54,977 nucleotides of DNA from Ignavibacteriae bacterium HGW-Ignavibacteriae-1 (GTDB taxonomy: Bacteria; Bacteroidota; Ignavibacteria; Kapaibacteriales; UBA2268). Positions within the stretch are counted from its first letter, which is position 1. Each line of letters opens with the position of its first letter. The notes under the pieces are model-generated. The model saw nothing but the letters and a program-made list of their open reading frames with translations. It ran no database searches and was not told the origin of the DNA. Shown here piece by piece: positions 21,887-51,855 of the stretch. Position numbers and translations under genes: made by a program. The stretch lies in contig PGYU01000002.1 in assembly GCA_002839825.1 (NCBI GenBank), forward strand, positions 133,962 through 188,938, in the 5' to 3' direction.

Positions 21887-22096
21887 CCGCATAGTATTCT
21901 GTAATAGAGAAAAAAAGCAAATACGTAAAACAAAATCCAAAAAAATGAAACATAAATATAGAAAAATGAAACATAAATCTAAAAACATGAGACATGATTC
22001 AAAAATACATAAACAAAATTCTAAAAATATGTGAAACATAAATCCAAAAAACGTAAAACATAAATCCAAAAAGTCTGAACCCAAAATACTATGCGG
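21887..22096. repeat. 21-nt tandem repeats enclosed by a 12-bp inverted repeat
   Basis: CCGCATAGTATT (21887-21898) and its exact complement (22085-22096) enclose seven imperfect tandem copies (21923-22073) of a 20-22-nt unit, roughly ATGAAACATAAATCCAAAAA. Copies begin at 21923, 21945, 21966, 21987, 22007, 22029 and 22051. It starts 6 nt past the stop codon of the T9SS gene, so in RNA it would be a long 3' UTR loop closed by a 12-bp stem. It could also be a small mobile (MITE-like) unit; no target-site duplication was found by eye. Confidence 0.65.
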
Positions 22097-49983: not shown

Positions 49984-50262
49984 CTAATTTTCTGTTTGCT
50001 TGTTGCCGAATTGCTTCAGTAACGCAAATGGTATCAACACAAAATATCCGATTACAAGAAGCATCGGTGCTACTTTCACAGCCCATGGGTTGTTCCATTT
50101 GCCGTCAATCGTTGCCGGGTCTTCAGTTATACCCGTTGCCATCAACAGATAACCTAATACAATCACGCCAATTGCAATCGCAAACAGCTTGAAGTTTCCT
50201 GCTTTAAGCGGGAATTCCCAAATTACTTTTTTAGCTGTACTTTTAATTACCTTTTTTGCCAT
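49984..50262 (-). CDS. DUF3098-type small membrane protein
   Basis: A 92-aa protein with two predicted transmembrane helices (about 26-43 and 62-84) joined by a short loop (TEDPATIDGKWNNPWAVKVAP), matching the DUF3098 family found in Bacteroidota. Function is unknown. In many relatives a DUF3098 gene lies between ftsX and uppP; here it precedes era instead. Confidence 0.8.
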   Translation of the reverse strand: MAKKVIKSTAKKVIWEFPLKAGNFKLFAIAIGVIVLGYLLMATGITEDPATIDGKWNNPWAVKVAPMLLVIGYFVLIPFALLKQFGNKQTEN

Positions 50263-50415: not shown

Positions 50416-51855
50416 ATGGAAAGTAAAGAAAAACGGGGCAAATTGATTTTAGTTTCAACCCCAATCGGCAATAAGGACGATTTCACTATCAGAGCAATTG
50501 AAGCTCTCAAAATGAGCGATTTCGTTATTTGCGAAGAATTAAAAATGGGCGCCAATATCTTAAGGCAAATCAATCTTTCGAAGGAATTTTACACTTTGAA
50601 TGAGCATAATGAAGAAGAAAATGCAGCTGAACTGATTGAAATTATCAAAACCGGCAAAACTGCCGCTCTGATTTCTGATGCAGGTACACCACTTTTCGCT
50701 GATCCGGGAAGGATTTTGCTCAAGTTGGCTCTCAAATCGGACATCGAAATTGAGGTTGTTCCGGGTGCATCGAGTATAATGACAGCGATAGTAAGATGTG
50801 GATTTGATTTGCACGAATTCGTCTATGCAGGCTTTTTGAGCCGCAATTCAGATGACAGAGTCAAAAAAATCAAAGAATTATCCTACGAACGTCGTACCAT
50901 TATTCTGATGGATACACCGTACAGGCTGCTAAGTCTGCTCGAAGATTTGAACAAAGTGATGCCCGAAAGAAGTGCCTATTTGGGCATGAATTTGACGATG
51001 CACTACGAAACGCATCATTACGGCACATTTTCCGAGCTATACAACAAATTGAAAGATGAGAAAATCAAATCTGAGTTTGTGATTTGTTTTGAAGGCAATT
51101 TCAACACTGCATATAAAAAACAAAGCTCCGAAAGAGGCGAATACTCTTCCGATAACCGCGATAGCCGTACAGAAAGCGGTGGCGACCGTCCACCTCGCAG
51201 AGATAACGATGACCGTCCTCCTCGTAGAGAATATGAAGACCGTCCACCACGACAGGATTACGGCGACAGACCTCCACGCAAAGATTACGGAGACAGACCT
51301 CCTCGCAAAGAATACGGAGACAGACCTCCCCGCAAGGAATACGGAGACAGACCTCCCCGCAAGGAATACGGTGACAGACCTCCCCGCAAGGAATACGGTG
51401 ACAGACCTCCTCGCAAAGAATATGGCGACCGACCTCCACGCAAAGAATTTGGTGATAAGCCACCACGCAGAGAATGGAGCGACAAACCACCACGCAGAGA
51501 ATGGAGCGATAAGCCTCCTCGCAAGGAATACGGCGACAGACCTCCTCGTAAAGAATTTGGTGACCGTCCTCCACGCAAAGAATGGAGTGACAAACCACCT
51601 CGCAGAGAATGGACAGATAAACCACCTCGCAGAGAATGGAGCGACAAACCACCACGCAAAGAGTACGATGACAGACCAAAAAGAGATGATGGTGATTCAA
51701 GAGGAAGAAGTTCGTGGTCTAACGACAGCGAAAGACCGCCACGTAAGGAATTTGGCGGCAAACCAAAAGCTTTTGGTTCGGGTGTGAAACCATTCAGACC
51801 CAAAAAAGCCGGTGGTGATTTCCCCAAGAAAAATCGTTTCACGAAAAGGAAATAG
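50416..51855 (+). CDS. rsmI: RsmI-like 16S rRNA 2'-O-ribose methyltransferase with nonapeptide-repeat tail
   Basis: The first 230 residues form an SAM-dependent tetrapyrrole-methylase-fold protein like RsmI, which methylates C1402 of 16S rRNA. Key segments: LVSTPIGNKDDFT, EELKMGANILRQ, ISDAGTPLFADPG, VPGASSIMTAI, and YAGFLSRNSDDRVKKI. RsmI usually ends near 280-300 aa; this one is 479 aa. From residue 256 to 417 it contains 18 near-identical nonapeptides of the form [GS]D[RK]PPR[KR]E[YFW], then a degenerate unit and a basic Gly/Lys-rich C-terminus. The tail is presumably disordered and RNA-binding or condensate-forming. The repeat is in frame with no stop, so the fusion is real in this sequence. 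Confidence 0.85.
   Translation: MESKEKRGKLILVSTPIGNKDDFTIRAIEALKMSDFVICEELKMGANILRQINLSKEFYTLNEHNEEENAAELIEIIKTGKTAALISDAGTPLFADPGRILLKLALKSDIEIEVVPGASSIMTAIVRCGFDLHEFVYAGFLSRNSDDRVKKIKELSYERRTIILMDTPYRLLSLLEDLNKVMPERSAYLGMNLTMHYETHHYGTFSELYNKLKDEKIKSEFVICFEGNFNTAYKKQSSERGEYSSDNRDSRTESGGDRPPRRDNDDRPPRREYEDRPPRQDYGDRPPRKDYGDRPPRKEYGDRPPRKEYGDRPPRKEYGDRPPRKEYGDRPPRKEYGDRPPRKEFGDKPPRREWSDKPPRREWSDKPPRKEYGDRPPRKEFGDRPPRKEWSDKPPRREWTDKPPRREWSDKPPRKEYDDRPKRDDGDSRGRSSWSNDSERPPRKEFGGKPKAFGSGVKPFRPKKAGGDFPKKNRFTKRK
51181..51666 (+). repeat. 27-bp tandem repeats within rsmI tail
   Basis: Eighteen contiguous 27-nt units encode the nonapeptide tail. The units from about 51286 to 51420 are nearly identical at the DNA level (synonymous changes only), while outer units diverge (KEY to REW, GDR to SDK). 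This indicates recent expansion by slippage or unequal exchange in the middle of the array. It also keeps other frames open, which explains the overlapping spurious ORFs. Confidence 0.9.

Follow-up and report, generated by a model that had tools for sequence, protein, structure and literature searches.

A second RsmI-type methyltransferase with a repeat-built, predicted disordered tail in the Kapaibacteriales

Introduction

Why does a gene that reads as an rRNA methyltransferase end in a long run of charged, aromatic nonapeptides, and what might such a tail do? The question is raised by a 54,977-nucleotide stretch of DNA from Ignavibacteriae bacterium HGW-Ignavibacteriae-1 (class Ignavibacteria, order Kapaibacteriales), which as a whole we call the window. 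An earlier note on this DNA took the gene for RsmI, the 16S C1402 methyltransferase, fused to a disordered tail that could grip RNA in the manner of helicase RGG tails. RNA enzymes with disordered, Arg-rich tails are familiar, and RGG tails on DEAD-box helicases are known RNA-gripping arms. Our literature search, which covered titles and abstract openings with most subscription journals outside its scope, brought up no tailed RsmI paralogue that we recognised; the methyltransferase as tail bearer and the order-wide turnover of the tail look new.

Results

The gene and its parts

The gene, which we call p2, is an ATG-initiated open reading frame of 479 aa at 50416–51855 (+). Profile matches, alignment, AlphaFold and Foldseek together place its catalytic TP_methylase/RsmI-type domain at residues 1 to about 228 (50416–51099, +). 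The Pfam TP_methylase model matches the protein at 99.7 bits, and the NCBIfam equivalog TIGR00096 does so at 173.3 bits, which passes the cut-off of 167.9 narrowly; the remaining p2 members score on either side of it. AlphaFold gives block pLDDT values of 87–98 over residues 11–230, except for one block at 72, and Foldseek lists the RsmI structures 3kwp, 9pzg and 5hw4 at the top, with 1wyz next. By domain match and fold, p2 belongs to the TP_methylase superfamily of class III methyltransferases, and in this sense the earlier description of an RsmI-like enzyme was right. No match to the RsmI_C helix-turn-helix (HTH) model was found in the window protein by Pfam search.

The remaining 251 aa (51100–51852, +) are predicted to be disordered, both from composition and from the AlphaFold block pLDDT, which drops to 34–55 from residue 231 on. 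Arg makes up 0.19 of the tail, Lys 0.12, Asp and Glu together 0.21, and Phe, Tyr and Trp 0.10, while Ala, Val, Ile, Leu, Met and Cys together account for only 0.02. The disordered, charge-patterned and aromatic-bearing character that had been proposed for the tail thus agrees with its composition and with the model. TRF and translation show 18 contiguous in-frame nonapeptides at residues 256–417 (51181–51666, +), with the consensus GDRPPRKEY and Y, W or F in the last place; coordinates and frame had been given correctly before. A degenerate 19th unit, DDRPKRDDG, can be read from the frame and its translation at 51667–51693 (+). Comparison of translations shows an isolated unit, SERPPRKEF, at 51727–51753 (+), which is found also in both congeneric species. 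The protein ends in a basic C-terminus, GGKPKAFGSGVKPFRPKKAGGDFPKKNRFTKRK (51754–51852, +), near-identical across the three congeneric species by sequence comparison. We took three shadow ORFs at 51089–51787 (+), 51101–51700 (−) and 51285–51842 (−) as by-products of the repeat.

Variation and selection within the array

TRF reports four long rows on the array, with periods of 27, 54, 81 and 108 and scores of 320–397. Across the 18 units, positions 2, 4, 5 and 6 (D, P, P and R) are invariant, position 3 is R or K and position 8 is E or D throughout, and position 7 is R or K and position 9 aromatic in 17. The remaining changes are mostly conservative (R/K, E/D, Y/W/F), and the change from Y to W takes two bases. 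RG and RGG motifs are absent from the window array, which has PPRKE and PPRRE instead; RGG-rich p2 tails are found in other genera.

The DNA of the units is much less uniform than the peptide. The near-identity of the central units in DNA, stated earlier, applies to units 5–9 and does not extend to all 18, whose pairwise pS is 0.62. Over the same pairs pN is 0.18, whereas a neutral star simulation gives a pN of 0.57 at a pS of 0.60 and a consensus match of about 3.1 of 9 positions, against the 7.28 of 9 observed. The window array is therefore conserved as a peptide and not as DNA alone, and selection acts on the peptide. A filtered pN/pS comparison over 15 arrays, the window's included, was uninformative: its median of 0.40 does not differ from the 0.41 of a neutral simulation under the identical identity filter. 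Because this control gave an equal ratio, we dropped the argument for purifying selection from the 15 arrays.

The two other congeneric species that we searched carry 14 and 17 contiguous units. The expectation of a variable repeat number is borne out to this extent, with the counts referring to species and not to strains. Since the array recurs in both species with differing counts, an assembly or frame error, which by the earlier note would refute the fusion, is very unlikely; in view also of the in-frame tails across the order, we rejected it. A further copy of the repeat was not found in the same genome, by a search that could miss low-complexity matches.

An ordinary RsmI elsewhere in the same genome

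The source genome holds two RsmI-type genes, p2 in the window and an ordinary RsmI of 229 aa elsewhere, which we call p1. The latter reaches 243.7–245.8 bits with the RsmI model and adjoins genes that, from reading their translations, we take to be deaminase-like and thymidylate kinase-like. We had considered the window gene as the sole RsmI of its genome, and the presence of p1 rules this out. Judged by sequence, p2 is a diverged second RsmI-type paralogue beside an ordinary RsmI that persists elsewhere in the genome. Open frames of p1 in the order are mostly 227–287 aa, so the 280–300 aa previously quoted as the normal RsmI length does not describe them, and the window gene is not an ordinary RsmI. 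Ordinary-length RsmI in close relatives had been held to speak against the fusion; the point does not apply here, as both genes, the ordinary RsmI and the paralogue with a tail, are present in the relatives.

We recovered p2 in 55 of 60 genomes of the order, the source genome included. In the other genomes, three have p1 alone and two are fragmented assemblies with no readable p2, one of them with a short second match. A class-wide search added three order p2 genes, along with four further order genomes that gave a single match in that search. The apparent absences fall in seven genomes (G036, G045, G052, G135, G142, G149 and G191) from two genera of one family, with p1 present wherever read; from these sequences, p2 appears to have been lost there.

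The TIGR00096 cut-off passes many p2 proteins, and automatic annotation may therefore call two C1402 methyltransferases per genome. Gene products labelled in this way in these genomes may be the second enzyme, with another target.

Altered active-site positions

We compared signatures between 91 p2 and 71 RsmI sequences, the latter comprising 31 p1, 25 from other phyla and 15 from Bacteroidota. At positions that are 97–100% fixed in RsmI, p2 differs: E-D-T-R becomes E-E-x-K, and in R-E-L-T-K the E and K are mostly N and M. The D and R of the first signature and the E and K of the second are present in 100% of the 71 RsmI sequences, whereas the majority of the 91 p2 proteins have other residues there. 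The window protein has E41, K43, N192 and M195 at these places, and its EExK, LNExNE, TPYR and NLTM positions differ from RsmI. Because these RsmI-invariant charged residues are altered in most p2 proteins, methylation of C1402 by p2 is improbable.

PMC5053481 gives the AdoMet contacts of E. coli RsmI as I21, T95, I98, D100, A124, Y169, E170, L198 and M228, most of them through the main chain, and has R174 contacting phosphate. Mapped by alignment, I21, T95 and D100 are kept in the window p2 as I17, T91 and D96, and four of the seven mapped contacts are altered (I98 to F94, A124 to S120, Y169 to M165 and E170 to D166); L198 and M228 lie outside the mapped set. F144 and R174 of E. coli RsmI are kept as F140 and R170. 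Compared with RsmI (5HW4, 9PZG and 3KWP), p2 thus has the fold, the domain length and the equivalents of Asp100, Phe144 and Arg174. It differs in belonging to a paralogous clade, in its altered EDTR, YHxHNE and RELTK signatures, and in having a tail and no RsmI_C HTH match. Catalysis by p2 is plausible, although four altered AdoMet contacts weigh against taking activity as assured; its substrate probably differs from that of RsmI, and it probably does not methylate C1402.

A probable old second branch and the PDB 1WYZ family

In our trees p1 and p2 form separate clades. The class-wide tree unites p2 as one clade of 49 sequences with support of 100; the order's p2 has 97, and the order together with its sister family f13 has 98. 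When we added a single protein of the type of PDB 1WYZ, a putative SAM-dependent methyltransferase of Bacteroidota, p2 received 93 and p2 plus this protein (L183) 97. With 31 such proteins, p2 and the 1WYZ type form one clade with support of 100, in which p2 alone is not monophyletic and branches are long. This non-monophyly may be due to long-branch attraction.

At a threshold of at least 136 bits, the 1WYZ type is present in none of the 36 class genomes sampled, as against 61 of 112 from other groups. Given the common clade and the presence of the 1WYZ type outside the class, the Bacteroidota probably have an old second line of RsmI-type enzymes, of which the window gene would be a member. 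L183 has the residue of p2 at L61, N62, S120, T167 and Y169; unlike p2, it has the D and R of RsmI at the places of E41 and K43. The 1WYZ family also differs in being far more diverged than p2 and in lacking a tail, with 0–4 aa after the domain in all 30 proteins read.

Tails across the order and the class

Across the order the tail goes with the p2 paralogue, and it is not a private fusion. There are 58 p2 genes in the order, 52 of them with a complete 3' end; of the complete genes, 48 have a tail of at least 25 aa, 29 one of at least 100 aa, and four one of less than 25 aa. Such short tails, together with the seven genomes from which p2 appears to be absent, indicate that the lineage can do without the tail and without the gene. 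In 43 of the 48 tails, R+K reaches at least 0.2 and AVILMC stays below 0.2 (five fail this criterion), and these 43 are built from unrelated units at loci whose G+C runs from about 0.26 to 0.60. Among 28 long tails without unreadable letters, 21 are repetitive (z >5), with 13 different best periods of 5 to 30 residues. Units vary from genus to genus, and the charged and aromatic, hydrophobe-poor make-up is mostly kept; several tails are short, Lys-rich and not RGG-like. Net charge has a median of about +0.1 per residue, acid offsetting much of the base, and three tails are net negative. Tail length bears no relation to locus G+C (Spearman p 0.50), and a weak increase with G+C is seen in R/(R+K) (p 0.048).

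Among the sequences read, only p2 of the order and of one sister family bear tails. We read 32 p1 loci (those given for the best matches, plus two fetched by place), and 1–15 residues follow the domain in 31, one locus being unreadable. Outside the order, we read 52 class loci from 127 genomes, a non-random set of best-scoring matches and longest open frames, of which 28 were placed in the tree. At 47 of the loci no more than 18 residues follow the domain, and one is unreadable. Family f13 has tails of the order-p2 kind in four loci, from four of its five genomes in the class search, one of them cut by a contig end. RsmI proteins of other phyla often run 50–60 residues further past the domain. 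We tested two of them against the C-terminal HTH model, and one gave a match, with a score under the cut-off.

Similar segments on helicases and other proteins

Among 558 crude gene calls, taken from the window and from the surroundings of the p2 loci, a stretch of 60 aa rich in R/K and poor in hydrophobes is present in 36. Thirty-three of these are RsmI-like, and the other three are a pseudouridine synthase, a ribosomal protein S2 and one without a name at a locus end. DEAD-box helicases of related genomes satisfy the same R/K criterion in six of 14 cases read. A strong Helicase_C match was obtained in 36 of 60 relatives and a helicase frame read in 33 genomes; by a looser criterion that ignores Arg/Lys content, the C-terminus is hydrophobe-poor over at least 30 aa in 28 of the 33 and over at least 60 aa in 19. 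The likeness to helicase RGG tails that had been suggested thus has a counterpart on helicases of the same order, but not in the window genus, where none of three genomes has a comparable tail on its DEAD-box helicase; this counts against the reading of the tail as an RNA arm. The p2 tail resembles RGG-type helicase tails in its C-terminal repeats of Arg, Gly, aromatic and acidic residues, and differs in sitting on a methyltransferase and, in the window, in an array of the DRPPRKEY type without RGG motifs. PMC6821194 describes an enrichment of Arg in low-complexity regions of bacterial proteins that bind or process RNA.

RGG-like or related repeat C-termini are seen on the helicases of L296, L298, L301, L303, L306 and L309, and also of L341 and L346. 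One genome pairs a (GEKSY)n helicase tail with a (GDKKF)n p2 tail. The ribosomal protein S2 at L073:167-1252 (−) has an Arg/Gly-rich C-terminal extension, and its genome has a tailed p2 and one tailed helicase. The pseudouridine synthase at L042:3703-4836 (−), near a tailed p2, contains a Lys/Arg-rich hydrophobe-poor region. None of 21 pseudouridine synthases read was flagged as a tail bearer, an anchored frame being absent at two additional loci. In the source genome, three matches to pseudouridine synthase have open frames of ordinary size (364, 274 and 278).

Discussion

We consider it somewhat better than an even bet that the p2 tail is an RGG-like arm for RNA binding or ribosome tethering on a diverged RsmI-type methyltransferase, a reading in which we infer RNA binding, tethering, catalysis and substrate. 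The tail would bind RNA weakly and multivalently, Arg contacting phosphates and bases and the aromatic residues stacking, with the acidic residues limiting its stickiness. It could in this way hold p2 on nascent or immature ribosomal particles and, by analogy with helicase RGG tails, concentrate locally a methyltransferase that is weak or promiscuous. Expansion and contraction of the repeat would be free to alter the length of the tail if what matters is how many grips there are and not their exact sequence. In favour of this reading stand the two separate genes per genome, the spread of repetitive tails over the order's p2 and their absence from readable p1 loci, selection on the window unit, the predicted disorder, the published Arg enrichment, the kept D96, F140 and R170, and similar segments on helicases and other RNA proteins. 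Against it stand the offset of base by acid, the short tails and the genomes with p1 alone, the Lys-rich tails and those outside the composition criterion, the four altered AdoMet contacts and the helicase of the window genus.

An alternative that we regard as improbable is that p2 modifies another RNA, such as a tRNA or a different rRNA site, and that its tail docks onto proteins instead of binding RNA. Pocket residues unlike those of RsmI are consistent with another RNA, and acidic residues make up roughly one fifth of the window tail, as might suit docking; most tails, however, are net positive with Arg and aromatic content, and the presence of similar regions on RNA and ribosome proteins favours RNA.

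We give similarly low credence to a condensate scaffold, in which p2 and tailed DEAD-box helicases of one cell would demix together to form a body for ribosome assembly, with an enzyme part that may be dead or of minor importance. A composition of Arg, aromatic and acidic residues, as in these tails, is of the phase-separating type. Further, in the 21 genomes with both a p2 and a helicase segment, the two share more k-mers within a genome than between genomes (permutation p of 0.0014 for 2-3-mers, 0.0013 for 3-4-mers and 0.0078 for composition). This resemblance weakens to 0.005–0.046 when stratified by G+C, about five genomes carry the signal, and a genome's own pair lies above the mean of the others in only 12–14 of 21. 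We treat it as a lead only, which shared amino-acid usage or phylogeny may explain, and the window genus has no helicase tail at all. For Bacteroides, PMC13269538 describes condensation of Rho, the transcription terminator.

It is tempting to go further and imagine a shared tail code, in which, within one cell, p2 and the DEAD-box helicases would maintain repeats of Arg, aromatic and acidic residues that match each other and change fast, and would co-assemble with immature ribosomes in a nucleolus-like condensate, p2 writing a 2'-O-methyl mark; we would call this a long shot.

No better placed is the reading suggested by the automatic family name, that p2 is the organism's own RsmI (the 16S C1402 2'-O-methyltransferase) with a tail added. 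It has on its side the RsmI fold and the TIGR00096 cut-off, and against it the higher-scoring ordinary RsmI in the same genome, the altered EDTR and RELTK residues, and the separate clades of p1 and p2. The earlier assignment of the window gene as the C1402 enzyme is accordingly not supported.

Selfish or neutral repeat DNA, built by slippage and tolerated by a dispensable C-terminus, is already disfavoured and has little chance of being right: units that turn over between genera, unit numbers that vary among three species, a few nearly tail-less p2 genes and a filtered pN/pS at the neutral value would suit it, but the unfiltered test places the contiguous window array far from neutrality, the same R/K-rich, hydrophobe-poor make-up recurs with unrelated units across a wide range of G+C, and no tail occurs at the 31 readable p1 loci.

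The order offers a natural experiment in which one enzyme, in about fifty genomes, carries tails of unrelated sequence and similar chemistry. Together with the tail-less orthologues across the class, this allows a test of which part of a disordered RNA-binding tail selection sees.

Operon context led nowhere as a clue to function. The largest neighbour cluster after p2 itself (26 loci) is one of ORFs, and its representative lies over p2 on the opposite strand. The best real neighbour is a DUF3098 protein, near p2 in 12 loci; in the window it lies at 49984–50262 (−), divergent from p2. Rfam gave no match at the gathering threshold anywhere in the window. Far from the gene, at 21928–22072, lies a degenerate, A-rich tandem repeat of 6.8 copies of a 21-base unit, with no ORF of at least 120 aa over it.
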